DNA of 64,000 bases from Owenia fusiformis (Eukaryota; Annelida; Polychaeta; Sabellida; Oweniidae), in the NCBI GenBank assembly GCA_903813345.2, contig CAIIXF020000009.1:23709759-23773758 (forward strand), given 5' to 3'. The position numbers and the translations under genes were made by a program. The notes under the pieces are model-generated. The model did no database searches, was not told the DNA's origin, and saw only the letters and a list, made by a program, of their open reading frames with translations. Shown piece by piece: positions 33,482 to 64,000 of the stretch. Position 1 is the stretch's first letter. Each line of letters begins with the position of its first letter.

Positions 33482-33896
33482 GTATCAAATGAAAAAGACA
33501 GTGTTTTAGACCATCGGCGAATTATTGGGAGAATTTCATGAAAACTAAGCAATGAACCGTCGTTTGGCATAATTCTTAGCAATAAAACGAACGTCTCCAG
33601 TCTATTCCTTTGCTGAATTGGCTGAAGTGCACAAGCATGCGCTTGCATGCGAATTTTCGTATTTAGACACTTTTTCGAAACAAATGCATTTCCAGGCATG
33701 CATCAAATGCATGGTACTATCAGGCGTTTGGACAATAATGACAGTCTCATGCATGGTCGTGCATTGCTAGCTGATCGGCAGGATGTGCTTCTTGCTGAGC
33801 TTATGGCACTAAACAGGGCGTTGCAGGCGCAGTCGTCGCCTTCGGAAGCTTAAGAGTGGAGATGGAAGAGCTGGGAGTGATTTTTGTTTGTTAGAT

Positions 33897-34058
33897 CAGG
33901 GAGAGCGCGAACGCAGTCCCCCACTATCATAAATTACGCATCGAGTAACCCACATTTGGGTTATCGCAGCGGTCAGCCCATCCGATGTGCAATGGACAGG
34001 CCTCGCACTGGAGAAACCTCCATCTTGACCAAGGTGTTTCTCTATGCCAGGTAAGTAT
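33897..34058 (-). ncRNA. U1 snRNA, copy 1 (162 nt, with indels)
   Basis: First copy after the gap. Relative to the reference copy at 39135 it lacks three bases (one G of the stem-loop IV run, one C near the Sm side, one G in stem-loop III) and has one extra T near the 5' stem, all as read on the + strand. Either a slightly damaged gene or consensus errors beside the gap. Confidence 0.88.
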
Positions 34059-34644
34059 GCCAATGTTCGGCAGTTGTACAAACCCCTATCAGCATCATTT
34101 TGAGATGCGCAAGTGTTTCTGAAATGCGAGTTGCAAGAACAGAGAACTGCTACCATCATTACGAATTTATCTGAATTGGTGACCTCTCTAAGATGCACAC
34201 TGTCCCCGTATGAAATGTTTTGAGATTATCAAATGAAAAAGACAGTGTTTTAGGACCATCGGCGAATTATTGGGAGAATTTCATGAAAACTAAGCAAATG
34301 AACCGTCGTTTGGCCTAATTCTTAGCAATAAAACGAACGTCTCCAGTCTATTTCCTTTGCTGAATTGGCTGAAGTGCACAAGCATGCGCTTGCATGCGAA
34401 TTTTCGTATTTAGACACTTTTCGAAACAAAATGCATTTCCAGGCCATGCATCAAATGCATGGTACTATCAGGCGTTTGGACAATAATGACAGTCTCATGC
34501 ATGGTCGTGCATTGCTAGCTGATCGGCAGGATGTGCTTCTTGCTGAGCTTATGGCACTAAACAGGGCGTTGCAGGCGCAGTCGTCGCCTTCGGAAGCTTA
34601 AGAGTGGAGATGGAAGAGCTGGGAGTGATTTTTGTTTGTTAGAT

Positions 34645-34809
34645 CAGGGGAGAGCGCGAACCGCAGTCCCCCACTATCATAAATTACGCATCCGAGTAAC
34701 CCACATTTGGGGTTATCGCAGCGGTCAGCCCATCCGATGTGCAATGGACAGGCCTCGCACTGGAGAAACCTCCATCTTGACCAAGGTGTTCTCTATGCCA
34801 GGTAAGTAT
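34645..34809 (-). ncRNA. U1 snRNA, copy 2 (165 nt)
   Basis: One extra C (+ strand) in the stem-loop IV region; otherwise as the reference copy. Confidence 0.9.
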
Positions 34810-35394
34810 GCCAATGTTCGGCAGTTGTACAAACCCCTATCAGCATCATTTTGAGATGCGCAAGTGTTTCTGAATGCGAGTTGCAAGAACAGAGAACTGC
34901 TACCATCATTACGAATTTATCTGAATTGGTGACCTCTCTAAGATGCACACTGTCCCCGTATGAAATGTTTTGAGATTATCAAATGAAAAAGACAGTGTTT
35001 TAGACCATCGGCGAATTATTGGGAGAATTTCATGAAAACTAAGCAAATGAACCGTCGTTTGGCCTAATTCTTAGCAATAAAACGAACGTCTCCAGTCTAT
35101 TTCCTTTGCTGAATTGGCTGAAGTGCACAAGCATGCGCTTGCATGCGAATTTTCGTATTTAGACACTTTTTCGAAACAAAATGCATTTCCAGGCCATGCA
35201 TCAAATGCATGGTACTATCAGGCGTTTGGACAATAATGACAGTCTCATGCATGGTCGTGCATTGCTAGCTGATCGGCAGGATGTGCTTCTTGCTGAGCTT
35301 ATGGCACTAAACAGGGCGTTGCAGGCGCAGTCGTCGCCTTCGGAAGCTTAAGAGTGGAGATGGAAGAGCTGGGAGTGATTTTTGTTTGTTAGAT

Positions 35395-35558
35395 CAGGGG
35401 AGAGCGCGAACGCAGTCCCCCACTATCATAAATTACGCATCCGAGTAACCCACATTTGGGGTTATCGCAGCGGTCAGCCCATCCGATGTGCAATGGACAG
35501 GCCTCGCACTGGAGAAACCTCCATCTTGACCAAGGTGTTCTCTATGCCAGGTAAGTAT
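35395..35558 (-). ncRNA. U1 snRNA, copy 3
   Basis: 164 nt, identical to the reference copy at 39135. Confidence 0.95.
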
Positions 35559-36141
35559 GCCAATGTTCGGCAGTTGTACAAACCCCTATCAGCATCATTT
35601 TGAGATGCGCAAGTGTTTCTGAAATGCGAGTTGCAAGAACAGAGAACTGCTACCATCATTACGAATTTATCTGAATTGGTGACCTCTCTAAGATGCACAC
35701 TGTCCCCGTATGAAATGTTTGAGATTATCAAATGAAAAAGACAGTGTTTTAGACCATCGGCGAATTATTGGGAGAATTTCATGAAAACTAAGCAAATGAA
35801 CCGTCGTTTGGCCTAATTCTTAGCAATAAAACGAACGTCTCCAGTCTATTTCCTTTGCTGAATTGGCTGAAGTGCACAAGCATGCGCTTGCATGCGAATT
35901 TTCGTATTTAGACACTTTTTCGAAACAAAATGCATTTCCAGGCCATGCATCAAATGCATGGTACTATCAGGCGTTTGGACAATAATGACAGTCTCATGCA
36001 TGGTCGTGCATTGCTAGCTGATCGGCAGGATGTGCTTCTTGCTGAGCTTATGGCACTAAACAGGGCGTTGCAGGCGCAGTCGTCGCCTTCGGAAGCTTAA
36101 GAGTGGAGAGGAAGAGCTGGGAGTGATTTTGTTTGTTAGAT

Positions 36142-36306
36142 CAGGGGAGAGCGCGAACGCAGTCCCCCACTATCATAAATTACGCATCCGAGTAACCCAC
36201 ATTTGGGGTTATCGCAGCGGTCAGCCCATCCGATGTGCAATGGACAGGCCTCGCACTGGAGAAAACCTCCATCTTGACCAAGGTGTTCTCTATGCCAGGT
36301 AAGTAT
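36142..36306 (-). ncRNA. U1 snRNA, copy 4 (165 nt)
   Basis: One extra A (+ strand) in the stem-loop I region; otherwise as the reference. Confidence 0.9.
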
Positions 36307-36891
36307 GCCAATGTTCGGCAGTTGTACAAACCCCTATCAGCATCATTTTGAGATGCGCAAGTGTTTCTGAAATGCGAGTTGCAAGAACAGAGAACTGCTA
36401 CCATCATTACGAATTTATCTGAATTGGTGACCTCTCTAAGATGCACACTGTCCCCGTATGAAATGTTTTGAGATTATCAAATGAAAAGACAGTGTTTTAG
36501 ACCATCGGCGAATTATTGGGAGAATTTCATGAAAACTAAGCAAATGAACCGTCGTTTGGCCTAATTCTTAGCAATAAAACGAACGTCTCCAGTCTATTTC
36601 CTTTGCTGAATTGGCTGAAGTGCACAAGCATGCGCTTGCATGCGAATTTTCGTATTTAGACACTTTTTCGAAACAAAATGCATTTCCAGGCCATGCATCA
36701 AATGCATGGTACTATCAGGCGTTTGGACAATAATGACAGTCTCATGCATGGTCGTGCATTGCTAGCTGATCAGCAGGATGTGCTTCTTGCTGAGCTTATG
36801 GCACTAAACAGGGCGTTGCAGGCGCAGTCGTCGCCTTCGGAAGCTTAAGAGTGGAGATGGAAGAGCTGGGAGTGATTTTTGTTTGTTAGAT

Positions 36892-37055
36892 CAGGGGAGA
36901 GCGCGAACGCAGTCCCCCACTATCATAAATTACGCATCCGAGTAACCCACATTTGGGGTTATCGCAGCGGTCAGCCCATCCGATGTGCAATGGACAGGCC
37001 TCGCACTGGAGAAACCTCCATCTTGACCAAGGTGTTCTCTATGCCAGGTAAGTAT
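36892..37055 (-). ncRNA. U1 snRNA, copy 5
   Basis: 164 nt, identical to the reference; one base is missing from its upstream flank. Confidence 0.95.
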
Positions 37056-37638
37056 GCCAATGTTCGGCAGTTGTACAACCCCTATCAGCATCATTTTGAG
37101 ATGCGCAAGTGTTTCTGAAATGCGAGTTGCAAGAAGAGAGAACTGCTACCATCATTACGAATTTATCTGAATTGGTGACCTCTCTAAGATGCACACTGTC
37201 CCCGTATGAAATGTTTTGAGATTATCAAATGAAAAGACAGTGTTTTAGACCATCGGCGAATTATTGGGAGAATTTCATGAAAACTAAGCAAATGAACCGT
37301 CGTTTGGCCTAATTCTTAGCAATAAAACGAACGTCTCCAGTCTATTTCCTTGCTGAATTGGCTGAAGTGCACAAGCATGCGCTTGCATGCGAATTTTCGT
37401 ATTTAGACACTTTTTCGAAACAAAATGCATTTCCAGGCCATGCATCAAATGCATGGTACTATCAGGCGTTTGGACAATAATGACAGTCTCATGCATGGTC
37501 GTGCATTGCTAGCTGATCGGCAGGATGTGCTTCTTGCTGAGCTTATGGCACTAAACAGGGCGTTGCAGGCGCAGTCGTCGCCTTCGGAAGCTTAAGAGTG
37601 GAGATGGAAGAGCTGGGAGTGATTTTTGTTTGTTAGAT

Positions 37639-37801
37639 CAGGGGAGAGCGCGAACGCAGTCCCCCACTATCATAATTACGCATCCGAGTAACCCACATTT
37701 GGGGTTATCGCAGCGGTCAGCCCATCCGATGTGCAATGGACAGGCCTCGCACTGGAGAAACCTCCATCTTGACCAAGGTGTTCTCTATGCCAGGTAAGTA
37801 T
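37639..37801 (-). ncRNA. U1 snRNA, copy 6 (163 nt)
   Basis: One A (+ strand) fewer, falling within the U run of the Sm region; otherwise as the reference. Confidence 0.9.
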
Positions 37802-38385
37802 GCCAATGTTCGGCAGTTGTACAAACCCCTATCAGCATCATTTTGAGATGCGCAAGTGTTTCTGAAATGCGAGTTGCAAGAACAGAGAACTGCTACCATC
37901 ATTACGAATTTATCTGAATTGGTGACCTCTCTAAGATGCACACTGTCCCCGTATGAAATGTTTTGAGATTATCAATGAAAAAGACAGTGTTTTAGACCAT
38001 CGGCGAATTATTGGAGAATTTCATGAAAACTAAGCAAATGAACCGTCGTTTGGCCTAATTCTTAGCAATAAAACGAACGTCTCCAGTCTATTTCCTTTGC
38101 TGAATTGGCTGAAGTGCACAAGCATGCGCTTGCATGCGAATTTTCGTATTTAGACACTTTTTCGAAACAAAATGCATTTCCAGGCCATGCATCAAATGCA
38201 TGGTACTATCAGGCGTTTGGACAATAATGACAGTCTCATGCATGGTCGTGCATTGCTAGCTGATCGGCAGGATGTGCTTCTTGCTGAGCTTATGGCACTA
38301 AACAGGGCGTTGCAGGCGCAGTCGTCGCCTTCGGAAGCTTAAGAGTGGAGATGGAAGAGCTGGGAGTGATTTTTGTTTGTTAGAT

Positions 38386-38549
38386 CAGGGGAGAGCGCGA
38401 ACGCAGTCCCCCACTATCATAAATTACGCATCCGAGTAACCCACATTTGGGGTTATCGCAGCGGTCAGCCCATCCGATGTGCAATGGACAGGCCTCGCAC
38501 TGGAGAAACCTCCATCTTGACCAAGGTGTTCTCTATGCCAGGTAAGTAT
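38386..38549 (-). ncRNA. U1 snRNA, copy 7
   Basis: 164 nt, identical to the reference. From here on all copies are uniform. Confidence 0.96.
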
Positions 38550-39134
38550 GCCAATGTTCGGCAGTTGTACAAACCCCTATCAGCATCATTTTGAGATGCG
38601 CAAGTGTTTCTGAAATGCGAGTTGCAAGAACAGAGAACTGCTACCATCATTACGAATTTATCTGAATTGGTGACCTCTCTAAGATGCACACTGTCCCCGT
38701 ATGAAATGTTTTGAGATTATCAAATGAAAAAGACAGTGTTTTAGACCATCGGCGAATTATTGGGAGAATTTCATGAAAACTAAGCAAATGAACCGTCGTT
38801 TGGCCTAATTCTTAGCAATAAAACGAACGTCTCCAGTCTATTTCCTTTGCTGAATTGGCTGAAGTGCACAAGCATGCGCTTGCATGCGAATTTTCGTATT
38901 TAGACACTTTTTCGAAACAAAATGCATTTCCAGGCCATGCATCAAATGCATGGTACTATCAGGCGTTTGGACAATAATGACAGTCTCATGCATGGTCGTG
39001 CATTGCTAGCTGATCGGCAGGATGTGCTTCTTGCTGAGCTTATGGCACTAAACAGGGCGTTGCAGGCGCAGTCGTCGCCTTCGGAAGCTTAAGAGTGAGA
39101 TGGAAGAGCTGGGAGTGATTTTTGTTTGTTAGAT

Positions 39135-39298
39135 CAGGGGAGAGCGCGAACGCAGTCCCCCACTATCATAAATTACGCATCCGAGTAACCCACATTTGGG
39201 GTTATCGCAGCGGTCAGCCCATCCGATGTGCAATGGACAGGCCTCGCACTGGAGAAACCTCCATCTTGACCAAGGTGTTCTCTATGCCAGGTAAGTAT
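39135..39298 (-). ncRNA. U1: U1 spliceosomal snRNA, copy 8 (reference copy described in full)
   Basis: RNA core of the U1 snRNP, which pairs with 5' splice sites in the nucleus. The minus strand starts AUACUUACCUG, the exact 5' end that pairs with CAG|GTAAGTAT, and is 164 nt long, the same as human U1. Stem-loop II carries AUUGCACAUC (U1A site core AUUGCAC kept) on a fully paired stem. Stem-loop III is AACCCCAAAUGUGGGUU, where human has UU/AA, a compensatory exchange. Helix H keeps pairing (CAGUG with CGCUG). Stem-loop IV is GGGGGACUGCGUUCGCGCUC. Odd points: loop I is GGUCAAGAUG instead of the U1-70K consensus GAUCANGAAG, and the Sm region is AAUUUAUGA rather than AAUUUGUGG. The identification is by recall of U1 sequences and is very strong; whether these copies are all expressed is unknown. 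Confidence 0.97.
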
Positions 39299-39335
39299 GC
39301 CAATGTTCGGCAGTTGTACAAACCCCTATCAGCAT

Positions 39336-39355
39336 CATTTTGAGATGCGCAAGTG
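39336..39355 (-). promoter_or_regulatory. Candidate PSE of the U1 gene (same position in every monomer)
   Basis: At -57 to -38 from the U1 start the minus strand reads CACTTGCGCATCTCAAAATG. Proximal sequence elements that bind SNAPc sit at this distance, and vertebrate ones also end in an A-rich AAAG/AAAT phrase. PSEs diverge between phyla, so the assignment rests mainly on position. Confidence 0.4.
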
Positions 39356-39884
39356 TTTCTGAAATGCGAGTTGCAAGAACAGAGAACTGCTACCATCATT
39401 ACGAATTTATCTGAATTGGTGACCTCTCTAAGATGCACACTGTCCCCGTATGAAATGTTTTGAGATTATCAAATGAAAAAGACAGTGTTTTAGACCATCG
39501 GCGAATTATTGGGAGAATTTCATGAAAACTAAGCAAATGAACCGTCGTTTGGCCTAATTCTTAGCAATAAAACGAACGTCTCCAGTCTATTTCCTTTGCT
39601 GAATTGGCTGAAGTGCACAAGCATGCGCTTGCATGCGAATTTTCGTATTTAGACACTTTTTCGAAACAAAATGCATTTCCAGGCCATGCATCAAATGCAT
39701 GGTACTATCAGGCGTTTGGACAATAATGACAGTCTCATGCATGGTCGTGCATTGCTAGCTGATCGGCAGGATGTGCTTCTTGCTGAGCTTATGGCACTAA
39801 ACAGGGCGTTGCAGGCGCAGTCGTCGCCTTCGGAAGCTTAAGAGTGGAGATGGAAGAGCTGGGAGTGATTTTTGTTTGTTAGAT

Positions 39885-40048
39885 CAGGGGAGAGCGCGAA
39901 CGCAGTCCCCCACTATCATAAATTACGCATCCGAGTAACCCACATTTGGGGTTATCGCAGCGGTCAGCCCATCCGATGTGCAATGGACAGGCCTCGCACT
40001 GGAGAAACCTCCATCTTGACCAAGGTGTTCTCTATGCCAGGTAAGTAT
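39885..40048 (-). ncRNA. U1: U1 snRNA, copy 9
   Basis: 164 nt, identical to the reference copy. Confidence 0.96.
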
Positions 40049-40634
40049 GCCAATGTTCGGCAGTTGTACAAACCCCTATCAGCATCATTTTGAGATGCGC
40101 AAGTGTTTCTGAAATGCGAGTTGCAAGAACAGAGAACTGCTACCATCATTACGAATTTATCTGAATTGGTGACCTCTCTAAGATGCACACTGTCCCCGTA
40201 TGAAATGTTTTGAGATTATCAAATGAAAAAGACAGTGTTTTAGACCATCGGCGAATTATTGGGAGAATTTCATGAAAACTAAGCAAATGAACCGTCGTTT
40301 GGCCTAATTCTTAGCAATAAAACGAACGTCTCCAGTCTATTTCCTTTGCTGAATTGGCTGAAGTGCACAAGCATGCGCTTGCATGCGAATTTTCGTATTT
40401 AGACACTTTTTCGAAACAAAATGCATTTCCAGGCCATGCATCAAATGCATGGTACTATCAGGCGTTTGGACAATAATGACAGTCTCATGCATGGTCGTGC
40501 ATTGCTAGCTGATCGGCAGGATGTGCTTCTTGCTGAGCTTATGGCACTAAACAGGGCGTTGCAGGCGCAGTCGTCGCCTTCGGAAGCTTAAGAGTGGAGA
40601 TGGAAGAGCTGGGAGTGATTTTTGTTTGTTAGAT

Positions 40635-40798
40635 CAGGGGAGAGCGCGAACGCAGTCCCCCACTATCATAAATTACGCATCCGAGTAACCCACATTTGGG
40701 GTTATCGCAGCGGTCAGCCCATCCGATGTGCAATGGACAGGCCTCGCACTGGAGAAACCTCCATCTTGACCAAGGTGTTCTCTATGCCAGGTAAGTAT
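40635..40798 (-). ncRNA. U1: U1 snRNA, copy 10
   Basis: 164 nt, identical to the reference copy. Confidence 0.96.
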
Positions 40799-41384
40799 GC
40801 CAATGTTCGGCAGTTGTACAAACCCCTATCAGCATCATTTTGAGATGCGCAAGTGTTTCTGAAATGCGAGTTGCAAGAACAGAGAACTGCTACCATCATT
40901 ACGAATTTATCTGAATTGGTGACCTCTCTAAGATGCACACTGTCCCCGTATGAAATGTTTTGAGATTATCAAATGAAAAAGACAGTGTTTTAGACCATCG
41001 GCGAATTATTGGGAGAATTTCATGAAAACTAAGCAAATGAACCGTCGTTTGGCCTAATTCTTAGCAATAAAACGAACGTCTCCAGTCTATTTCCTTTGCT
41101 GAATTGGCTGAAGTGCACAAGCATGCGCTTGCATGCGAATTTTCGTATTTAGACACTTTTTCGAAACAAAATGCATTTCCAGGCCATGCATCAAATGCAT
41201 GGTACTATCAGGCGTTTGGACAATAATGACAGTCTCATGCATGGTCGTGCATTGCTAGCTGATCGGCAGGATGTGCTTCTTGCTGAGCTTATGGCACTAA
41301 ACAGGGCGTTGCAGGCGCAGTCGTCGCCTTCGGAAGCTTAAGAGTGGAGATGGAAGAGCTGGGAGTGATTTTTGTTTGTTAGAT

Positions 41385-41548
41385 CAGGGGAGAGCGCGAA
41401 CGCAGTCCCCCACTATCATAAATTACGCATCCGAGTAACCCACATTTGGGGTTATCGCAGCGGTCAGCCCATCCGATGTGCAATGGACAGGCCTCGCACT
41501 GGAGAAACCTCCATCTTGACCAAGGTGTTCTCTATGCCAGGTAAGTAT
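41385..41548 (-). ncRNA. U1: U1 snRNA, copy 11
   Basis: 164 nt, identical to the reference copy. Confidence 0.96.
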
Positions 41549-42134
41549 GCCAATGTTCGGCAGTTGTACAAACCCCTATCAGCATCATTTTGAGATGCGC
41601 AAGTGTTTCTGAAATGCGAGTTGCAAGAACAGAGAACTGCTACCATCATTACGAATTTATCTGAATTGGTGACCTCTCTAAGATGCACACTGTCCCCGTA
41701 TGAAATGTTTTGAGATTATCAAATGAAAAAGACAGTGTTTTAGACCATCGGCGAATTATTGGGAGAATTTCATGAAAACTAAGCAAATGAACCGTCGTTT
41801 GGCCTAATTCTTAGCAATAAAACGAACGTCTCCAGTCTATTTCCTTTGCTGAATTGGCTGAAGTGCACAAGCATGCGCTTGCATGCGAATTTTCGTATTT
41901 AGACACTTTTTCGAAACAAAATGCATTTCCAGGCCATGCATCAAATGCATGGTACTATCAGGCGTTTGGACAATAATGACAGTCTCATGCATGGTCGTGC
42001 ATTGCTAGCTGATCGGCAGGATGTGCTTCTTGCTGAGCTTATGGCACTAAACAGGGCGTTGCAGGCGCAGTCGTCGCCTTCGGAAGCTTAAGAGTGGAGA
42101 TGGAAGAGCTGGGAGTGATTTTTGTTTGTTAGAT

Positions 42135-42298
42135 CAGGGGAGAGCGCGAACGCAGTCCCCCACTATCATAAATTACGCATCCGAGTAACCCACATTTGGG
42201 GTTATCGCAGCGGTCAGCCCATCCGATGTGCAATGGACAGGCCTCGCACTGGAGAAACCTCCATCTTGACCAAGGTGTTCTCTATGCCAGGTAAGTAT
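42135..42298 (-). ncRNA. U1: U1 snRNA, copy 12
   Basis: 164 nt, identical to the reference copy. Confidence 0.96.
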
Positions 42299-42884
42299 GC
42301 CAATGTTCGGCAGTTGTACAAACCCCTATCAGCATCATTTTGAGATGCGCAAGTGTTTCTGAAATGCGAGTTGCAAGAACAGAGAACTGCTACCATCATT
42401 ACGAATTTATCTGAATTGGTGACCTCTCTAAGATGCACACTGTCCCCGTATGAAATGTTTTGAGATTATCAAATGAAAAAGACAGTGTTTTAGACCATCG
42501 GCGAATTATTGGGAGAATTTCATGAAAACTAAGCAAATGAACCGTCGTTTGGCCTAATTCTTAGCAATAAAACGAACGTCTCCAGTCTATTTCCTTTGCT
42601 GAATTGGCTGAAGTGCACAAGCATGCGCTTGCATGCGAATTTTCGTATTTAGACACTTTTTCGAAACAAAATGCATTTCCAGGCCATGCATCAAATGCAT
42701 GGTACTATCAGGCGTTTGGACAATAATGACAGTCTCATGCATGGTCGTGCATTGCTAGCTGATCGGCAGGATGTGCTTCTTGCTGAGCTTATGGCACTAA
42801 ACAGGGCGTTGCAGGCGCAGTCGTCGCCTTCGGAAGCTTAAGAGTGGAGATGGAAGAGCTGGGAGTGATTTTTGTTTGTTAGAT

Positions 42885-43048
42885 CAGGGGAGAGCGCGAA
42901 CGCAGTCCCCCACTATCATAAATTACGCATCCGAGTAACCCACATTTGGGGTTATCGCAGCGGTCAGCCCATCCGATGTGCAATGGACAGGCCTCGCACT
43001 GGAGAAACCTCCATCTTGACCAAGGTGTTCTCTATGCCAGGTAAGTAT
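42885..43048 (-). ncRNA. U1: U1 snRNA, copy 13
   Basis: 164 nt, identical to the reference copy. Confidence 0.96.
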
Positions 43049-43634
43049 GCCAATGTTCGGCAGTTGTACAAACCCCTATCAGCATCATTTTGAGATGCGC
43101 AAGTGTTTCTGAAATGCGAGTTGCAAGAACAGAGAACTGCTACCATCATTACGAATTTATCTGAATTGGTGACCTCTCTAAGATGCACACTGTCCCCGTA
43201 TGAAATGTTTTGAGATTATCAAATGAAAAAGACAGTGTTTTAGACCATCGGCGAATTATTGGGAGAATTTCATGAAAACTAAGCAAATGAACCGTCGTTT
43301 GGCCTAATTCTTAGCAATAAAACGAACGTCTCCAGTCTATTTCCTTTGCTGAATTGGCTGAAGTGCACAAGCATGCGCTTGCATGCGAATTTTCGTATTT
43401 AGACACTTTTTCGAAACAAAATGCATTTCCAGGCCATGCATCAAATGCATGGTACTATCAGGCGTTTGGACAATAATGACAGTCTCATGCATGGTCGTGC
43501 ATTGCTAGCTGATCGGCAGGATGTGCTTCTTGCTGAGCTTATGGCACTAAACAGGGCGTTGCAGGCGCAGTCGTCGCCTTCGGAAGCTTAAGAGTGGAGA
43601 TGGAAGAGCTGGGAGTGATTTTTGTTTGTTAGAT

Positions 43635-43798
43635 CAGGGGAGAGCGCGAACGCAGTCCCCCACTATCATAAATTACGCATCCGAGTAACCCACATTTGGG
43701 GTTATCGCAGCGGTCAGCCCATCCGATGTGCAATGGACAGGCCTCGCACTGGAGAAACCTCCATCTTGACCAAGGTGTTCTCTATGCCAGGTAAGTAT
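43635..43798 (-). ncRNA. U1: U1 snRNA, copy 14
   Basis: 164 nt, identical to the reference copy. Confidence 0.96.
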
Positions 43799-44384
43799 GC
43801 CAATGTTCGGCAGTTGTACAAACCCCTATCAGCATCATTTTGAGATGCGCAAGTGTTTCTGAAATGCGAGTTGCAAGAACAGAGAACTGCTACCATCATT
43901 ACGAATTTATCTGAATTGGTGACCTCTCTAAGATGCACACTGTCCCCGTATGAAATGTTTTGAGATTATCAAATGAAAAAGACAGTGTTTTAGACCATCG
44001 GCGAATTATTGGGAGAATTTCATGAAAACTAAGCAAATGAACCGTCGTTTGGCCTAATTCTTAGCAATAAAACGAACGTCTCCAGTCTATTTCCTTTGCT
44101 GAATTGGCTGAAGTGCACAAGCATGCGCTTGCATGCGAATTTTCGTATTTAGACACTTTTTCGAAACAAAATGCATTTCCAGGCCATGCATCAAATGCAT
44201 GGTACTATCAGGCGTTTGGACAATAATGACAGTCTCATGCATGGTCGTGCATTGCTAGCTGATCGGCAGGATGTGCTTCTTGCTGAGCTTATGGCACTAA
44301 ACAGGGCGTTGCAGGCGCAGTCGTCGCCTTCGGAAGCTTAAGAGTGGAGATGGAAGAGCTGGGAGTGATTTTTGTTTGTTAGAT

Positions 44385-44548
44385 CAGGGGAGAGCGCGAA
44401 CGCAGTCCCCCACTATCATAAATTACGCATCCGAGTAACCCACATTTGGGGTTATCGCAGCGGTCAGCCCATCCGATGTGCAATGGACAGGCCTCGCACT
44501 GGAGAAACCTCCATCTTGACCAAGGTGTTCTCTATGCCAGGTAAGTAT
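44385..44548 (-). ncRNA. U1: U1 snRNA, copy 15
   Basis: 164 nt, identical to the reference; the spacer above it has one extra T near 44905, so the next copy is 751 bp away. Confidence 0.96.
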
Positions 44549-45135
44549 GCCAATGTTCGGCAGTTGTACAAACCCCTATCAGCATCATTTTGAGATGCGC
44601 AAGTGTTTCTGAAATGCGAGTTGCAAGAACAGAGAACTGCTACCATCATTACGAATTTATCTGAATTGGTGACCTCTCTAAGATGCACACTGTCCCCGTA
44701 TGAAATGTTTTGAGATTATCAAATGAAAAAGACAGTGTTTTAGACCATCGGCGAATTATTGGGAGAATTTCATGAAAACTAAGCAAATGAACCGTCGTTT
44801 GGCCTAATTCTTAGCAATAAAACGAACGTCTCCAGTCTATTTCCTTTGCTGAATTGGCTGAAGTGCACAAGCATGCGCTTGCATGCGAATTTTCGTATTT
44901 AGACACTTTTTTCGAAACAAAATGCATTTCCAGGCCATGCATCAAATGCATGGTACTATCAGGCGTTTGGACAATAATGACAGTCTCATGCATGGTCGTG
45001 CATTGCTAGCTGATCGGCAGGATGTGCTTCTTGCTGAGCTTATGGCACTAAACAGGGCGTTGCAGGCGCAGTCGTCGCCTTCGGAAGCTTAAGAGTGGAG
45101 ATGGAAGAGCTGGGAGTGATTTTTGTTTGTTAGAT

Positions 45136-52048: not shown

Positions 52049-52634
52049 GCCAATGTTCGGCAGTTGTACAAACCCCTATCAGCATCATTTTGAGATGCGC
52101 AAGTGTTTCTGAAATGCGAGTTGCAAGAACAGAGAACTGCTACCATCATTACGAATTTATCTGAATTGGTGACCTCTCTAAGATGCACACTGTCCCCGTA
52201 TGAAATGTTTTGAGATTATCAAATGAAAAAGACAGTGTTTTAGACCATCGGCGAATTATTGGGAGAATTTCATGAAAACTAAGCAAATGAACCGTCGTTT
52301 GGCCTAATTCTTAGCAATAAAACGAACGTCTCCAGTCTATTTCCTTTGCTGAATTGGCTGAAGTGCACAAGCATGCGCTTGCATGCGAATTTTCGTATTT
52401 AGACACTTTTTCGAAACAAAATGCATTTCCAGGCCATGCATCAAATGCATGGTACTATCAGGCGTTTGGACAATAATGACAGTCTCATGCATGGTCGTGC
52501 ATTGCTAGCTGATCGGCAGGATGTGCTTCTTGCTGAGCTTATGGCACTAAACAGGGCGTTGCAGGCGCAGTCGTCGCCTTCGGAAGCTTAAGAGTGGAGA
52601 TGGAAGAGCTGGGAGTGATTTTTGTTTGTTAGAT

Positions 52635-52798
52635 CAGGGGAGAGCGCGAACGCAGTCCCCCACTATCATAAATTACGCATCCGAGTAACCCACATTTGGG
52701 GTTATCGCAGCGGTCAGCCCATCCGATGTGCAATGGACAGGCCTCGCACTGGAGAAACCTCCATCTTGACCAAGGTGTTCTCTATGCCAGGTAAGTAT
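52635..52798 (-). ncRNA. U1: U1 snRNA, copy 26
   Basis: 164 nt, identical to the reference copy. Confidence 0.96.
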
Positions 52799-53384
52799 GC
52801 CAATGTTCGGCAGTTGTACAAACCCCTATCAGCATCATTTTGAGATGCGCAAGTGTTTCTGAAATGCGAGTTGCAAGAACAGAGAACTGCTACCATCATT
52901 ACGAATTTATCTGAATTGGTGACCTCTCTAAGATGCACACTGTCCCCGTATGAAATGTTTTGAGATTATCAAATGAAAAAGACAGTGTTTTAGACCATCG
53001 GCGAATTATTGGGAGAATTTCATGAAAACTAAGCAAATGAACCGTCGTTTGGCCTAATTCTTAGCAATAAAACGAACGTCTCCAGTCTATTTCCTTTGCT
53101 GAATTGGCTGAAGTGCACAAGCATGCGCTTGCATGCGAATTTTCGTATTTAGACACTTTTTCGAAACAAAATGCATTTCCAGGCCATGCATCAAATGCAT
53201 GGTACTATCAGGCGTTTGGACAATAATGACAGTCTCATGCATGGTCGTGCATTGCTAGCTGATCGGCAGGATGTGCTTCTTGCTGAGCTTATGGCACTAA
53301 ACAGGGCGTTGCAGGCGCAGTCGTCGCCTTCGGAAGCTTAAGAGTGGAGATGGAAGAGCTGGGAGTGATTTTTGTTTGTTAGAT

Positions 53385-53548
53385 CAGGGGAGAGCGCGAA
53401 CGCAGTCCCCCACTATCATAAATTACGCATCCGAGTAACCCACATTTGGGGTTATCGCAGCGGTCAGCCCATCCGATGTGCAATGGACAGGCCTCGCACT
53501 GGAGAAACCTCCATCTTGACCAAGGTGTTCTCTATGCCAGGTAAGTAT
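53385..53548 (-). ncRNA. U1: U1 snRNA, copy 27
   Basis: 164 nt, identical to the reference copy. Confidence 0.96.
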
Positions 53549-54134
53549 GCCAATGTTCGGCAGTTGTACAAACCCCTATCAGCATCATTTTGAGATGCGC
53601 AAGTGTTTCTGAAATGCGAGTTGCAAGAACAGAGAACTGCTACCATCATTACGAATTTATCTGAATTGGTGACCTCTCTAAGATGCACACTGTCCCCGTA
53701 TGAAATGTTTTGAGATTATCAAATGAAAAAGACAGTGTTTTAGACCATCGGCGAATTATTGGGAGAATTTCATGAAAACTAAGCAAATGAACCGTCGTTT
53801 GGCCTAATTCTTAGCAATAAAACGAACGTCTCCAGTCTATTTCCTTTGCTGAATTGGCTGAAGTGCACAAGCATGCGCTTGCATGCGAATTTTCGTATTT
53901 AGACACTTTTTCGAAACAAAATGCATTTCCAGGCCATGCATCAAATGCATGGTACTATCAGGCGTTTGGACAATAATGACAGTCTCATGCATGGTCGTGC
54001 ATTGCTAGCTGATCGGCAGGATGTGCTTCTTGCTGAGCTTATGGCACTAAACAGGGCGTTGCAGGCGCAGTCGTCGCCTTCGGAAGCTTAAGAGTGGAGA
54101 TGGAAGAGCTGGGAGTGATTTTTGTTTGTTAGAT

Positions 54135-54298
54135 CAGGGGAGAGCGCGAACGCAGTCCCCCACTATCATAAATTACGCATCCGAGTAACCCACATTTGGG
54201 GTTATCGCAGCGGTCAGCCCATCCGATGTGCAATGGACAGGCCTCGCACTGGAGAAACCTCCATCTTGACCAAGGTGTTCTCTATGCCAGGTAAGTAT
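54135..54298 (-). ncRNA. U1: U1 snRNA, copy 28
   Basis: 164 nt, identical to the reference copy. Confidence 0.96.
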
Positions 54299-54884
54299 GC
54301 CAATGTTCGGCAGTTGTACAAACCCCTATCAGCATCATTTTGAGATGCGCAAGTGTTTCTGAAATGCGAGTTGCAAGAACAGAGAACTGCTACCATCATT
54401 ACGAATTTATCTGAATTGGTGACCTCTCTAAGATGCACACTGTCCCCGTATGAAATGTTTTGAGATTATCAAATGAAAAAGACAGTGTTTTAGACCATCG
54501 GCGAATTATTGGGAGAATTTCATGAAAACTAAGCAAATGAACCGTCGTTTGGCCTAATTCTTAGCAATAAAACGAACGTCTCCAGTCTATTTCCTTTGCT
54601 GAATTGGCTGAAGTGCACAAGCATGCGCTTGCATGCGAATTTTCGTATTTAGACACTTTTTCGAAACAAAATGCATTTCCAGGCCATGCATCAAATGCAT
54701 GGTACTATCAGGCGTTTGGACAATAATGACAGTCTCATGCATGGTCGTGCATTGCTAGCTGATCGGCAGGATGTGCTTCTTGCTGAGCTTATGGCACTAA
54801 ACAGGGCGTTGCAGGCGCAGTCGTCGCCTTCGGAAGCTTAAGAGTGGAGATGGAAGAGCTGGGAGTGATTTTTGTTTGTTAGAT

Positions 54885-55048
54885 CAGGGGAGAGCGCGAA
54901 CGCAGTCCCCCACTATCATAAATTACGCATCCGAGTAACCCACATTTGGGGTTATCGCAGCGGTCAGCCCATCCGATGTGCAATGGACAGGCCTCGCACT
55001 GGAGAAACCTCCATCTTGACCAAGGTGTTCTCTATGCCAGGTAAGTAT
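54885..55048 (-). ncRNA. U1: U1 snRNA, copy 29
   Basis: 164 nt, identical to the reference copy. Confidence 0.96.
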
Positions 55049-55634
55049 GCCAATGTTCGGCAGTTGTACAAACCCCTATCAGCATCATTTTGAGATGCGC
55101 AAGTGTTTCTGAAATGCGAGTTGCAAGAACAGAGAACTGCTACCATCATTACGAATTTATCTGAATTGGTGACCTCTCTAAGATGCACACTGTCCCCGTA
55201 TGAAATGTTTTGAGATTATCAAATGAAAAAGACAGTGTTTTAGACCATCGGCGAATTATTGGGAGAATTTCATGAAAACTAAGCAAATGAACCGTCGTTT
55301 GGCCTAATTCTTAGCAATAAAACGAACGTCTCCAGTCTATTTCCTTTGCTGAATTGGCTGAAGTGCACAAGCATGCGCTTGCATGCGAATTTTCGTATTT
55401 AGACACTTTTTCGAAACAAAATGCATTTCCAGGCCATGCATCAAATGCATGGTACTATCAGGCGTTTGGACAATAATGACAGTCTCATGCATGGTCGTGC
55501 ATTGCTAGCTGATCGGCAGGATGTGCTTCTTGCTGAGCTTATGGCACTAAACAGGGCGTTGCAGGCGCAGTCGTCGCCTTCGGAAGCTTAAGAGTGGAGA
55601 TGGAAGAGCTGGGAGTGATTTTTGTTTGTTAGAT

Positions 55635-55798
55635 CAGGGGAGAGCGCGAACGCAGTCCCCCACTATCATAAATTACGCATCCGAGTAACCCACATTTGGG
55701 GTTATCGCAGCGGTCAGCCCATCCGATGTGCAATGGACAGGCCTCGCACTGGAGAAACCTCCATCTTGACCAAGGTGTTCTCTATGCCAGGTAAGTAT
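55635..55798 (-). ncRNA. U1: U1 snRNA, copy 30
   Basis: 164 nt, identical to the reference copy. Confidence 0.96.
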
Positions 55799-56384
55799 GC
55801 CAATGTTCGGCAGTTGTACAAACCCCTATCAGCATCATTTTGAGATGCGCAAGTGTTTCTGAAATGCGAGTTGCAAGAACAGAGAACTGCTACCATCATT
55901 ACGAATTTATCTGAATTGGTGACCTCTCTAAGATGCACACTGTCCCCGTATGAAATGTTTTGAGATTATCAAATGAAAAAGACAGTGTTTTAGACCATCG
56001 GCGAATTATTGGGAGAATTTCATGAAAACTAAGCAAATGAACCGTCGTTTGGCCTAATTCTTAGCAATAAAACGAACGTCTCCAGTCTATTTCCTTTGCT
56101 GAATTGGCTGAAGTGCACAAGCATGCGCTTGCATGCGAATTTTCGTATTTAGACACTTTTTCGAAACAAAATGCATTTCCAGGCCATGCATCAAATGCAT
56201 GGTACTATCAGGCGTTTGGACAATAATGACAGTCTCATGCATGGTCGTGCATTGCTAGCTGATCGGCAGGATGTGCTTCTTGCTGAGCTTATGGCACTAA
56301 ACAGGGCGTTGCAGGCGCAGTCGTCGCCTTCGGAAGCTTAAGAGTGGAGATGGAAGAGCTGGGAGTGATTTTTGTTTGTTAGAT

Positions 56385-56548
56385 CAGGGGAGAGCGCGAA
56401 CGCAGTCCCCCACTATCATAAATTACGCATCCGAGTAACCCACATTTGGGGTTATCGCAGCGGTCAGCCCATCCGATGTGCAATGGACAGGCCTCGCACT
56501 GGAGAAACCTCCATCTTGACCAAGGTGTTCTCTATGCCAGGTAAGTAT
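56385..56548 (-). ncRNA. U1: U1 snRNA, copy 31
   Basis: 164 nt, identical to the reference copy. Confidence 0.96.
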
Positions 56549-57134
56549 GCCAATGTTCGGCAGTTGTACAAACCCCTATCAGCATCATTTTGAGATGCGC
56601 AAGTGTTTCTGAAATGCGAGTTGCAAGAACAGAGAACTGCTACCATCATTACGAATTTATCTGAATTGGTGACCTCTCTAAGATGCACACTGTCCCCGTA
56701 TGAAATGTTTTGAGATTATCAAATGAAAAAGACAGTGTTTTAGACCATCGGCGAATTATTGGGAGAATTTCATGAAAACTAAGCAAATGAACCGTCGTTT
56801 GGCCTAATTCTTAGCAATAAAACGAACGTCTCCAGTCTATTTCCTTTGCTGAATTGGCTGAAGTGCACAAGCATGCGCTTGCATGCGAATTTTCGTATTT
56901 AGACACTTTTTCGAAACAAAATGCATTTCCAGGCCATGCATCAAATGCATGGTACTATCAGGCGTTTGGACAATAATGACAGTCTCATGCATGGTCGTGC
57001 ATTGCTAGCTGATCGGCAGGATGTGCTTCTTGCTGAGCTTATGGCACTAAACAGGGCGTTGCAGGCGCAGTCGTCGCCTTCGGAAGCTTAAGAGTGGAGA
57101 TGGAAGAGCTGGGAGTGATTTTTGTTTGTTAGAT

Positions 57135-57298
57135 CAGGGGAGAGCGCGAACGCAGTCCCCCACTATCATAAATTACGCATCCGAGTAACCCACATTTGGG
57201 GTTATCGCAGCGGTCAGCCCATCCGATGTGCAATGGACAGGCCTCGCACTGGAGAAACCTCCATCTTGACCAAGGTGTTCTCTATGCCAGGTAAGTAT
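57135..57298 (-). ncRNA. U1: U1 snRNA, copy 32
   Basis: 164 nt, identical to the reference copy. Confidence 0.96.
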
Positions 57299-57884
57299 GC
57301 CAATGTTCGGCAGTTGTACAAACCCCTATCAGCATCATTTTGAGATGCGCAAGTGTTTCTGAAATGCGAGTTGCAAGAACAGAGAACTGCTACCATCATT
57401 ACGAATTTATCTGAATTGGTGACCTCTCTAAGATGCACACTGTCCCCGTATGAAATGTTTTGAGATTATCAAATGAAAAAGACAGTGTTTTAGACCATCG
57501 GCGAATTATTGGGAGAATTTCATGAAAACTAAGCAAATGAACCGTCGTTTGGCCTAATTCTTAGCAATAAAACGAACGTCTCCAGTCTATTTCCTTTGCT
57601 GAATTGGCTGAAGTGCACAAGCATGCGCTTGCATGCGAATTTTCGTATTTAGACACTTTTTCGAAACAAAATGCATTTCCAGGCCATGCATCAAATGCAT
57701 GGTACTATCAGGCGTTTGGACAATAATGACAGTCTCATGCATGGTCGTGCATTGCTAGCTGATCGGCAGGATGTGCTTCTTGCTGAGCTTATGGCACTAA
57801 ACAGGGCGTTGCAGGCGCAGTCGTCGCCTTCGGAAGCTTAAGAGTGGAGATGGAAGAGCTGGGAGTGATTTTTGTTTGTTAGAT

Positions 57885-58048
57885 CAGGGGAGAGCGCGAA
57901 CGCAGTCCCCCACTATCATAAATTACGCATCCGAGTAACCCACATTTGGGGTTATCGCAGCGGTCAGCCCATCCGATGTGCAATGGACAGGCCTCGCACT
58001 GGAGAAACCTCCATCTTGACCAAGGTGTTCTCTATGCCAGGTAAGTAT
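57885..58048 (-). ncRNA. U1: U1 snRNA, copy 33
   Basis: 164 nt, identical to the reference copy. Confidence 0.96.
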
Positions 58049-58634
58049 GCCAATGTTCGGCAGTTGTACAAACCCCTATCAGCATCATTTTGAGATGCGC
58101 AAGTGTTTCTGAAATGCGAGTTGCAAGAACAGAGAACTGCTACCATCATTACGAATTTATCTGAATTGGTGACCTCTCTAAGATGCACACTGTCCCCGTA
58201 TGAAATGTTTTGAGATTATCAAATGAAAAAGACAGTGTTTTAGACCATCGGCGAATTATTGGGAGAATTTCATGAAAACTAAGCAAATGAACCGTCGTTT
58301 GGCCTAATTCTTAGCAATAAAACGAACGTCTCCAGTCTATTTCCTTTGCTGAATTGGCTGAAGTGCACAAGCATGCGCTTGCATGCGAATTTTCGTATTT
58401 AGACACTTTTTCGAAACAAAATGCATTTCCAGGCCATGCATCAAATGCATGGTACTATCAGGCGTTTGGACAATAATGACAGTCTCATGCATGGTCGTGC
58501 ATTGCTAGCTGATCGGCAGGATGTGCTTCTTGCTGAGCTTATGGCACTAAACAGGGCGTTGCAGGCGCAGTCGTCGCCTTCGGAAGCTTAAGAGTGGAGA
58601 TGGAAGAGCTGGGAGTGATTTTTGTTTGTTAGAT

Positions 58635-58798
58635 CAGGGGAGAGCGCGAACGCAGTCCCCCACTATCATAAATTACGCATCCGAGTAACCCACATTTGGG
58701 GTTATCGCAGCGGTCAGCCCATCCGATGTGCAATGGACAGGCCTCGCACTGGAGAAACCTCCATCTTGACCAAGGTGTTCTCTATGCCAGGTAAGTAT
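58635..58798 (-). ncRNA. U1: U1 snRNA, copy 34
   Basis: 164 nt, identical to the reference copy. Confidence 0.96.
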
Positions 58799-59384
58799 GC
58801 CAATGTTCGGCAGTTGTACAAACCCCTATCAGCATCATTTTGAGATGCGCAAGTGTTTCTGAAATGCGAGTTGCAAGAACAGAGAACTGCTACCATCATT
58901 ACGAATTTATCTGAATTGGTGACCTCTCTAAGATGCACACTGTCCCCGTATGAAATGTTTTGAGATTATCAAATGAAAAAGACAGTGTTTTAGACCATCG
59001 GCGAATTATTGGGAGAATTTCATGAAAACTAAGCAAATGAACCGTCGTTTGGCCTAATTCTTAGCAATAAAACGAACGTCTCCAGTCTATTTCCTTTGCT
59101 GAATTGGCTGAAGTGCACAAGCATGCGCTTGCATGCGAATTTTCGTATTTAGACACTTTTTCGAAACAAAATGCATTTCCAGGCCATGCATCAAATGCAT
59201 GGTACTATCAGGCGTTTGGACAATAATGACAGTCTCATGCATGGTCGTGCATTGCTAGCTGATCGGCAGGATGTGCTTCTTGCTGAGCTTATGGCACTAA
59301 ACAGGGCGTTGCAGGCGCAGTCGTCGCCTTCGGAAGCTTAAGAGTGGAGATGGAAGAGCTGGGAGTGATTTTTGTTTGTTAGAT

Positions 59385-59548
59385 CAGGGGAGAGCGCGAA
59401 CGCAGTCCCCCACTATCATAAATTACGCATCCGAGTAACCCACATTTGGGGTTATCGCAGCGGTCAGCCCATCCGATGTGCAATGGACAGGCCTCGCACT
59501 GGAGAAACCTCCATCTTGACCAAGGTGTTCTCTATGCCAGGTAAGTAT
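59385..59548 (-). ncRNA. U1: U1 snRNA, copy 35
   Basis: 164 nt, identical to the reference copy. Confidence 0.96.
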
Positions 59549-60134
59549 GCCAATGTTCGGCAGTTGTACAAACCCCTATCAGCATCATTTTGAGATGCGC
59601 AAGTGTTTCTGAAATGCGAGTTGCAAGAACAGAGAACTGCTACCATCATTACGAATTTATCTGAATTGGTGACCTCTCTAAGATGCACACTGTCCCCGTA
59701 TGAAATGTTTTGAGATTATCAAATGAAAAAGACAGTGTTTTAGACCATCGGCGAATTATTGGGAGAATTTCATGAAAACTAAGCAAATGAACCGTCGTTT
59801 GGCCTAATTCTTAGCAATAAAACGAACGTCTCCAGTCTATTTCCTTTGCTGAATTGGCTGAAGTGCACAAGCATGCGCTTGCATGCGAATTTTCGTATTT
59901 AGACACTTTTTCGAAACAAAATGCATTTCCAGGCCATGCATCAAATGCATGGTACTATCAGGCGTTTGGACAATAATGACAGTCTCATGCATGGTCGTGC
60001 ATTGCTAGCTGATCGGCAGGATGTGCTTCTTGCTGAGCTTATGGCACTAAACAGGGCGTTGCAGGCGCAGTCGTCGCCTTCGGAAGCTTAAGAGTGGAGA
60101 TGGAAGAGCTGGGAGTGATTTTTGTTTGTTAGAT

Positions 60135-60298
60135 CAGGGGAGAGCGCGAACGCAGTCCCCCACTATCATAAATTACGCATCCGAGTAACCCACATTTGGG
60201 GTTATCGCAGCGGTCAGCCCATCCGATGTGCAATGGACAGGCCTCGCACTGGAGAAACCTCCATCTTGACCAAGGTGTTCTCTATGCCAGGTAAGTAT
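60135..60298 (-). ncRNA. U1: U1 snRNA, copy 36
   Basis: 164 nt, identical to the reference copy. Confidence 0.96.
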
Positions 60299-60884
60299 GC
60301 CAATGTTCGGCAGTTGTACAAACCCCTATCAGCATCATTTTGAGATGCGCAAGTGTTTCTGAAATGCGAGTTGCAAGAACAGAGAACTGCTACCATCATT
60401 ACGAATTTATCTGAATTGGTGACCTCTCTAAGATGCACACTGTCCCCGTATGAAATGTTTTGAGATTATCAAATGAAAAAGACAGTGTTTTAGACCATCG
60501 GCGAATTATTGGGAGAATTTCATGAAAACTAAGCAAATGAACCGTCGTTTGGCCTAATTCTTAGCAATAAAACGAACGTCTCCAGTCTATTTCCTTTGCT
60601 GAATTGGCTGAAGTGCACAAGCATGCGCTTGCATGCGAATTTTCGTATTTAGACACTTTTTCGAAACAAAATGCATTTCCAGGCCATGCATCAAATGCAT
60701 GGTACTATCAGGCGTTTGGACAATAATGACAGTCTCATGCATGGTCGTGCATTGCTAGCTGATCGGCAGGATGTGCTTCTTGCTGAGCTTATGGCACTAA
60801 ACAGGGCGTTGCAGGCGCAGTCGTCGCCTTCGGAAGCTTAAGAGTGGAGATGGAAGAGCTGGGAGTGATTTTTGTTTGTTAGAT

Positions 60885-61048
60885 CAGGGGAGAGCGCGAA
60901 CGCAGTCCCCCACTATCATAAATTACGCATCCGAGTAACCCACATTTGGGGTTATCGCAGCGGTCAGCCCATCCGATGTGCAATGGACAGGCCTCGCACT
61001 GGAGAAACCTCCATCTTGACCAAGGTGTTCTCTATGCCAGGTAAGTAT
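60885..61048 (-). ncRNA. U1: U1 snRNA, copy 37
   Basis: 164 nt, identical to the reference copy. Confidence 0.96.
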
Positions 61049-61634
61049 GCCAATGTTCGGCAGTTGTACAAACCCCTATCAGCATCATTTTGAGATGCGC
61101 AAGTGTTTCTGAAATGCGAGTTGCAAGAACAGAGAACTGCTACCATCATTACGAATTTATCTGAATTGGTGACCTCTCTAAGATGCACACTGTCCCCGTA
61201 TGAAATGTTTTGAGATTATCAAATGAAAAAGACAGTGTTTTAGACCATCGGCGAATTATTGGGAGAATTTCATGAAAACTAAGCAAATGAACCGTCGTTT
61301 GGCCTAATTCTTAGCAATAAAACGAACGTCTCCAGTCTATTTCCTTTGCTGAATTGGCTGAAGTGCACAAGCATGCGCTTGCATGCGAATTTTCGTATTT
61401 AGACACTTTTTCGAAACAAAATGCATTTCCAGGCCATGCATCAAATGCATGGTACTATCAGGCGTTTGGACAATAATGACAGTCTCATGCATGGTCGTGC
61501 ATTGCTAGCTGATCGGCAGGATGTGCTTCTTGCTGAGCTTATGGCACTAAACAGGGCGTTGCAGGCGCAGTCGTCGCCTTCGGAAGCTTAAGAGTGGAGA
61601 TGGAAGAGCTGGGAGTGATTTTTGTTTGTTAGAT

Positions 61635-61798
61635 CAGGGGAGAGCGCGAACGCAGTCCCCCACTATCATAAATTACGCATCCGAGTAACCCACATTTGGG
61701 GTTATCGCAGCGGTCAGCCCATCCGATGTGCAATGGACAGGCCTCGCACTGGAGAAACCTCCATCTTGACCAAGGTGTTCTCTATGCCAGGTAAGTAT
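61635..61798 (-). ncRNA. U1: U1 snRNA, copy 38
   Basis: 164 nt, identical to the reference copy. Confidence 0.96.
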
Positions 61799-62384
61799 GC
61801 CAATGTTCGGCAGTTGTACAAACCCCTATCAGCATCATTTTGAGATGCGCAAGTGTTTCTGAAATGCGAGTTGCAAGAACAGAGAACTGCTACCATCATT
61901 ACGAATTTATCTGAATTGGTGACCTCTCTAAGATGCACACTGTCCCCGTATGAAATGTTTTGAGATTATCAAATGAAAAAGACAGTGTTTTAGACCATCG
62001 GCGAATTATTGGGAGAATTTCATGAAAACTAAGCAAATGAACCGTCGTTTGGCCTAATTCTTAGCAATAAAACGAACGTCTCCAGTCTATTTCCTTTGCT
62101 GAATTGGCTGAAGTGCACAAGCATGCGCTTGCATGCGAATTTTCGTATTTAGACACTTTTTCGAAACAAAATGCATTTCCAGGCCATGCATCAAATGCAT
62201 GGTACTATCAGGCGTTTGGACAATAATGACAGTCTCATGCATGGTCGTGCATTGCTAGCTGATCGGCAGGATGTGCTTCTTGCTGAGCTTATGGCACTAA
62301 ACAGGGCGTTGCAGGCGCAGTCGTCGCCTTCGGAAGCTTAAGAGTGGAGATGGAAGAGCTGGGAGTGATTTTTGTTTGTTAGAT

Positions 62385-62548
62385 CAGGGGAGAGCGCGAA
62401 CGCAGTCCCCCACTATCATAAATTACGCATCCGAGTAACCCACATTTGGGGTTATCGCAGCGGTCAGCCCATCCGATGTGCAATGGACAGGCCTCGCACT
62501 GGAGAAACCTCCATCTTGACCAAGGTGTTCTCTATGCCAGGTAAGTAT
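62385..62548 (-). ncRNA. U1: U1 snRNA, copy 39
   Basis: 164 nt, identical to the reference copy. Confidence 0.96.
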
Positions 62549-63134
62549 GCCAATGTTCGGCAGTTGTACAAACCCCTATCAGCATCATTTTGAGATGCGC
62601 AAGTGTTTCTGAAATGCGAGTTGCAAGAACAGAGAACTGCTACCATCATTACGAATTTATCTGAATTGGTGACCTCTCTAAGATGCACACTGTCCCCGTA
62701 TGAAATGTTTTGAGATTATCAAATGAAAAAGACAGTGTTTTAGACCATCGGCGAATTATTGGGAGAATTTCATGAAAACTAAGCAAATGAACCGTCGTTT
62801 GGCCTAATTCTTAGCAATAAAACGAACGTCTCCAGTCTATTTCCTTTGCTGAATTGGCTGAAGTGCACAAGCATGCGCTTGCATGCGAATTTTCGTATTT
62901 AGACACTTTTTCGAAACAAAATGCATTTCCAGGCCATGCATCAAATGCATGGTACTATCAGGCGTTTGGACAATAATGACAGTCTCATGCATGGTCGTGC
63001 ATTGCTAGCTGATCGGCAGGATGTGCTTCTTGCTGAGCTTATGGCACTAAACAGGGCGTTGCAGGCGCAGTCGTCGCCTTCGGAAGCTTAAGAGTGGAGA
63101 TGGAAGAGCTGGGAGTGATTTTTGTTTGTTAGAT

Positions 63135-63298
63135 CAGGGGAGAGCGCGAACGCAGTCCCCCACTATCATAAATTACGCATCCGAGTAACCCACATTTGGG
63201 GTTATCGCAGCGGTCAGCCCATCCGATGTGCAATGGACAGGCCTCGCACTGGAGAAACCTCCATCTTGACCAAGGTGTTCTCTATGCCAGGTAAGTAT
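63135..63298 (-). ncRNA. U1: U1 snRNA, copy 40
   Basis: 164 nt, identical to the reference copy. Confidence 0.96.
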
Positions 63299-63884
63299 GC
63301 CAATGTTCGGCAGTTGTACAAACCCCTATCAGCATCATTTTGAGATGCGCAAGTGTTTCTGAAATGCGAGTTGCAAGAACAGAGAACTGCTACCATCATT
63401 ACGAATTTATCTGAATTGGTGACCTCTCTAAGATGCACACTGTCCCCGTATGAAATGTTTTGAGATTATCAAATGAAAAAGACAGTGTTTTAGACCATCG
63501 GCGAATTATTGGGAGAATTTCATGAAAACTAAGCAAATGAACCGTCGTTTGGCCTAATTCTTAGCAATAAAACGAACGTCTCCAGTCTATTTCCTTTGCT
63601 GAATTGGCTGAAGTGCACAAGCATGCGCTTGCATGCGAATTTTCGTATTTAGACACTTTTTCGAAACAAAATGCATTTCCAGGCCATGCATCAAATGCAT
63701 GGTACTATCAGGCGTTTGGACAATAATGACAGTCTCATGCATGGTCGTGCATTGCTAGCTGATCGGCAGGATGTGCTTCTTGCTGAGCTTATGGCACTAA
63801 ACAGGGCGTTGCAGGCGCAGTCGTCGCCTTCGGAAGCTTAAGAGTGGAGATGGAAGAGCTGGGAGTGATTTTTGTTTGTTAGAT

Positions 63885-64000
63885 CAGGGGAGAGCGCGAA
63901 CGCAGTCCCCCACTATCATAAATTACGCATCCGAGTAACCCACATTTGGGGTTATCGCAGCGGTCAGCCCATCCGATGTGCAATGGACAGGCCTCGCACT
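63885..64000 (-). ncRNA. U1: U1 snRNA, copy 41 (cut by the window end)
   Basis: The 3' 116 nt (stem-loops II to IV) are present; the 5' part lies beyond the window. Confidence 0.93.

Follow-up and report, generated by a model that had tools for sequence, protein, structure and literature searches.

Tandem U1 Gene Clusters in Animals

The U1 snRNA is transcribed by RNA polymerase II, capped, fitted with an Sm ring and used to mark the 5′ splice site. In the sea urchin, its genes form head-to-tail tandem repeats with one gene per unit, the units being longer than the one described here.

A clustered organization is described for the tapeworm Caryophyllaeus laticeps, in which the satellite-like repeat ClatSat13-761 likewise contains a U1 gene and is found to be clustered by FISH (PMC12274263). 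Among vertebrates, Xenopus likewise concentrates a large number of U1 copies on a single chromosome arm, the counts per chromosome being about 20 in X. tropicalis and, for X. laevis, 11 and about 35 (PMC10361878), and clustered U1 genes are likewise described for fishes, including the European hake and cichlids (PMC4696792). These precedents in a tapeworm, frogs and fishes bear out the remark, made in the first-pass annotation of the present locus, that U1 arrays are known in animals.

The window considered here, by which the whole 64,000-base stretch of Owenia fusiformis DNA is meant, contains a further array of this kind (Table 1). Judged from its letters, it very probably represents an expressed, homogenized animal U1 snRNA gene cluster arranged in head-to-tail units of 750 bp. 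This reading, which upholds the earlier view of the locus as a U1 gene array, is supported by the matches to the U1 model, the recognition motifs, the large majority of standard base pairs (44 of 46), the stable fold, the near-identity of the units, the decayed copy at the edge and the precedents named above.

Table 1. Coordinates of the array, its edge and its reference features within the window
Feature	Position	Strand	Basis or remark
Possible inverted relic of U1 stem-loop II	31882..31911	+	score 40 vs shuffle maximum 34
Short monomer relic (monomer positions 373-408)	31955..31990	+	score 47 vs shuffle maximum 34
Diverged monomer without U1 and near flanks	32496..32959		monomer 305-690 joined to ~221-325
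Assembly gap inside the repeat region, 522 N	32960..33481		
Tandem array, 750-bp monomers, one U1 gene each	33482..64000	-	RF00003 matches, spacing
Seven leftmost monomers	33897..39134	-	1-7 steps each, mostly single-base indels
Representative U1 snRNA gene, 164 nt	39135..39298	-	151.2 bits, model 1-166; letters as in 36/40 complete copies
Loop I of the representative copy, GGUCAAGAUG	39262..39271	-	Rfam alignment; bases 29, 36: A -> G, U
41st U1 copy, cut by window end	63885..64000	-	116 bases, exact match to reference copy

Identity and Extent of the Array

The full 64,000 bases were scanned on both strands with cmscan against Rfam 15, with the gathering score as the cut-off. All 41 matches at this cut-off belong to RF00003 and lie on the minus strand between positions 33896 and 64000; counting the matches to the Rfam U1 model had been suggested in the first-pass annotation and was here extended to the whole window. 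The matches correspond to 40 complete copies plus a further one that the window end truncates, by which the "more than 40 copies" claimed earlier are just barely reached. The complete copies cover model positions 1-166 and all exceed the gathering score of 69.5 bits, 36 of them with 151.2 bits and the remaining four with 136.2-144.8 bits, and the partial copy at the window end scores 93.7 bits. With E-values from 1e-38 to 3.8e-22 there is no room left for chance, and the covariance model identifies the minus-strand genes decisively as U1.

The successive U1 copies follow each other at distances of 747-751 bp on a single strand, in a head-to-tail order with one intact gene per unit, and the array exits the right end of the window. 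No other RNA family reaches its Rfam cut-off on either strand of the 64,000 bases, and no tRNA or tmRNA was found in the window. The array is absent from the report of Tandem Repeats Finder because the longest period that this program handles is 500.

The units are nearly identical to each other. Letter-identical 750-mers make up 31 of the 40 complete monomers, which confirms the monomer length first proposed, and one and the same 164-mer accounts for 36 of the 40 complete U1 copies. The earlier claim of a full-length 164-nt U1 in every monomer is therefore right for these 36 and slightly overstated with regard to the other four, which depart from the common 164-mer by one single-base step in three cases and by five in the fourth, a boundary base being among the five. 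Across the nine differing monomers, 25 alignment steps were counted, of which 23 are single-base indels and two are substitutions; one indel in the first monomer is an effect of the position at which the match was cut. Seven of these nine are the leftmost seven, located by the assembly gap, with 23 of the 25 steps among them, and the remaining two fall in monomers 15 and 24, one in each. The indels of the leftmost seven look to us less like biology than like a contig end that was left unpolished. It has to be noted that the near-perfect identity elsewhere may reflect real homogenization, an assembly effect, or both, and the copy number is therefore only what this assembly shows. This possible contribution of the assembly to the identity, along with the clustering of the single-base indels at the gap, counts against the reading of the array as a homogenized cluster.

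The Left Edge of the Array

The start of the array at 33482, as given in the first-pass annotation, is no more than the right edge of the gap of N, and a diverged repeat is found further to the left. The same account was correct as to the identity of U1 and silent on this U1-less copy, on the indels at the side of the gap and on the double change in loop I, which is discussed below. The diverged monomer agrees with the array monomer at 81.8% over 391 columns and at 88.7% over 115, and in the alignment position 690 of the array monomer runs directly into approximately position 221, so that U1 is absent together with the sequence close to it on both sides. A GCGCA stretch is present at both borders of the missing piece, which would be weakly consistent with a deletion. 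Further left, two short segments look like relics, their scores being above the maximum of 34 reached in 200 mononucleotide shuffles; against this, the U1 model run at E-values of up to 5 reports nothing at the possible inverted piece of stem-loop II. Seven weak matches to other RNA families to the left of the array, with E-values of 0.38-4.5, were all far below their cut-offs and were discarded.

The diverged copy also contains an open frame of 81 residues (32608-32853), a 47-codon stretch of which aligns to the array monomer without indels, and this could be taken to mean that the repeat is mainly a plus-strand unit of protein-coding or transposon nature, with U1 being carried along as a passenger. 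In the array monomer, however, the matching letters do not stay in one reading frame but fall into two, and of the 47 codons compared 12 are changed, 9 of them non-synonymously. None of the three frames compared with Pfam (two from the monomer and one from the diverged copy) reached the cut-off, the searches giving sub-threshold matches or none. A plus-strand protein was accordingly rejected, Pfam being negative and the codon comparison being without sign of constraint, and a coding or transposon unit as the main element deserves practically no credence.

Recognition Motifs and Secondary Structure

The 5′ end AUACUUACCUGG is present in all 40 complete copies and corresponds to the U1 5′-end feature ACUUACCUG, which is complementary to 5′ splice sites. 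The AUUGCAC motif of loop II, recognized by protein U1A, occurs as CCAUUGCACAUCGG in 41 of 41 copies. The stretch UAAUUUAUGAUAG, found in 40 of 41 copies and aligned to the consensus AUAAUUUgUGgUAG, is by its sequence a candidate Sm site, and it is positioned between stem III and stem IV. The motifs that had been named at first are all there and in order, as seen both in the Rfam alignment and in a copy-by-copy check.

The four stem-loops and helix H are present, with 44 of the 46 consensus pairs being standard. Of the 46 pairs in the Rfam consensus structure, 27 are unchanged, 14 are changed on both sides and three on one side with pairing kept, and two are non-standard, this tally being one of a single sequence against the family consensus and not of independent changes. 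One of the two non-standard pairs is a U-U in stem IV, which is also found in the letters of human stem IV. The fold of the U1 copy is more stable than that of 199 out of 200 dinucleotide shuffles (z -2.44). Of the stem changes relative to human U1 that were listed earlier, AA/UU for UU/AA in stem III is right when the human letters are compared, whereas the "U-G for G-C in helix H" was mislabeled: helix H has U-A at pair 15/119, and the U-G belongs to stem II, at whose foot it forms pair 51/88.

These features also bear on the possibility that the array is a dead satellite, i.e., an unexpressed U1 pseudogene that was amplified along with the sequence around it. The relics at the edge show that the unit does decay, the departure of loop I from the consensus could be counted in the same direction, and homogenization would keep even a dead unit uniform, which means that function cannot be read from identity by itself. 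Against a dead unit stand the recognition motifs, all of which are intact, and the 14 pairs changed on both sides, which are expected for a gene long under selection, and a dead satellite is accordingly considered very improbable.

Model of a Homogenized Gene Cluster

In the model favored here, that of an expressed cluster, each unit would have an snRNA-type promoter of its own, from which RNA polymerase II would transcribe U1, and the RNA would be capped and would acquire the Sm ring and the U1-specific proteins. The units would jointly supply the U1 snRNP for the recognition of 5′ splice sites, presumably as the species' main U1. The near-identity of the units would be maintained by unequal exchange and gene conversion, with copies at the edge escaping homogenization, losing their U1 and decaying. 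TATAA is absent from the minus strand of the monomer, as expected for snRNA genes transcribed by RNA polymerase II, and in the unit flanks, considered on their own, neither a proximal sequence element nor a 3′ box can be assigned, a point that tells against the model.

Loop I and the Contact with U1-70K

Loop I is GGUCAAGAUG in all 40 copies that cover it, the Rfam consensus being GAUCAaGAAG, so that 8 of its 10 bases are as in the consensus and only bases 29 and 36 differ (G29 and U36). Three standard forms of loop I that were looked for have zero occurrences in the window. The human loop I has the letters GAUCACGAAG (stem-loop I, PMC5041995), and in the human crystal structure A29 and A36 form a trans Watson-Crick/Hoogsteen pair that closes the loop, which is almost completely buried by U1-70K (PMC4383343). 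Since A29-A36 is the closing pair in human, both partners of that pair are changed in the array. This departure at 2 of 10 bases, which are the two partners of a contact-forming pair in human, speaks against the expressed-cluster reading. Folding software pairs bases within the naked loop I, which is uninformative with regard to the bound state. A nucleomorph U1 without an apparent U1-70K site has also been described (PMC6461891), which implies that loop I can change; it is treated here as a conserved, not a defining, element of U1.

For comparison, contigs of prokaryote genomes were scanned with a pattern reaching from the U1 5′ end to loop II, which gave eight loci. The U1 model matches two of these (L006 and L007), and the other six give no U1 model match at the cut-off. 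A complete U1 gene is present at L006:1121-1283 (151.7 bits) in a bin labeled Flavobacteriaceae, and another one at L007:1527-1690 (131.2 bits) in a bin labeled Trichormus, where part of a U2 gene is found as well; both U1 genes probably come from eukaryote DNA that contaminates prokaryote assemblies. Viral contigs, scanned three times, and plasmids and phages, searched with blastn, gave no U1 sequences for comparison. A29 and A36 are retained in both contaminant genes, and the loop I of L007 is off the consensus elsewhere (GAUCAGCAAG), from which it follows that loop I is not invariant. The basis of the loop I comparison consists of the Rfam consensus, the two contaminant U1s and the human letters from two papers. 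Among the literature matches listed, as given by titles and the starts of abstracts, the loop I string GGUCAAGAUGG is absent, and the string GGTCAAGATGG occurs in many, none of which is by its title about U1. The double change appears to be the one surprising feature of the array, though related species may turn out to share it widely.

That bases 29 and 36 are off the consensus in 40 of 40 copies covering loop I could also be understood if the cluster encoded a secondary, for example stage-specific, isoform with an altered loop I, the standard U1 being located elsewhere, and variant and developmental U1 isoforms are indeed described (PMC4291461, PMC5159530). The rest of the gene is standard, however, and a cluster this large would fit a main gene; within the 64,000-base window, the Rfam scan found no second U1 type. 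A cluster of variant U1 genes is thus regarded as unlikely.

The expressed-cluster reading also has a bolder form, which does not compete with it and is put forward as a doubtful, though conceivable, extension. It is that, in the main U1 of this lineage, the loop on which U1-70K docks may have been remodeled, with A29-A36 replaced by G29 and U36 throughout the homogenized array, gene conversion fixing both changes together, and U1-70K co-evolving or relaxing the contact. The loop I change makes it testable whether a strongly conserved splicing RNA-protein contact can re-pair under the homogenization of a gene family.

Other Features of the Window

Outside of the repeat region, a large opsin-like receptor exon is located on the plus strand at 5529-6458 (Pfam 7tm_1, E 1.8e-30). 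Its best matches among solved structures are the rhodopsin entries 4ww3, 2ziy and 2z73, which we take to be squid rhodopsin, and the exon points to an animal that has an opsin of the rhabdomeric type. On the minus strand at 19450-20724 there is a reverse transcriptase, of the non-LTR type by its look and in two open frames, of which the piece at 19453-20340 matches Pfam RVT_1 (E 5.5e-23). A tandem array of a 31-bp unit in about 14.5 copies occupies 20870-21320 on the plus strand, with similar pieces extending to approximately 22800, and smaller tandem arrays with units of 159, 172 and 135 bp are found at 4301-4843, 15477-15937 and 16169-16734, each with between 2.7 and 4 copies. At 27753-28268, a 22-bp motif around GGTGAATATGCCATAC recurs in several short rows that run in either orientation, and this region also gives weak microRNA matches below the cut-off.

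Comparison with Known U1 Clusters

Set beside the systems described above, the array is an ordinary kind of U1 cluster, with loop I as its one feature worth following up. Its novelty was at first estimated too high, tandem U1 genes being known and a U1 satellite of 761 bp being in print for the tapeworm. The grouped U1 copies of Xenopus differ in belonging to a vertebrate. In hake, the U1 genes are described on most chromosome pairs and are partly linked to U2 (PMC4696792), whereas in the window with the present array no other RNA family reaches its Rfam cut-off. ClatSat13-761 is close in the length of its unit (761 bp compared to 750 bp here) and differs in its U1 sequence, which was annotated by similarity to the U1 of Echinococcus and sea urchin (PMC12274263). 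As in the tapeworm case, what would pass for a 30-kb "satellite" is an intact-looking U1 cluster that would be hidden by repeat masking.
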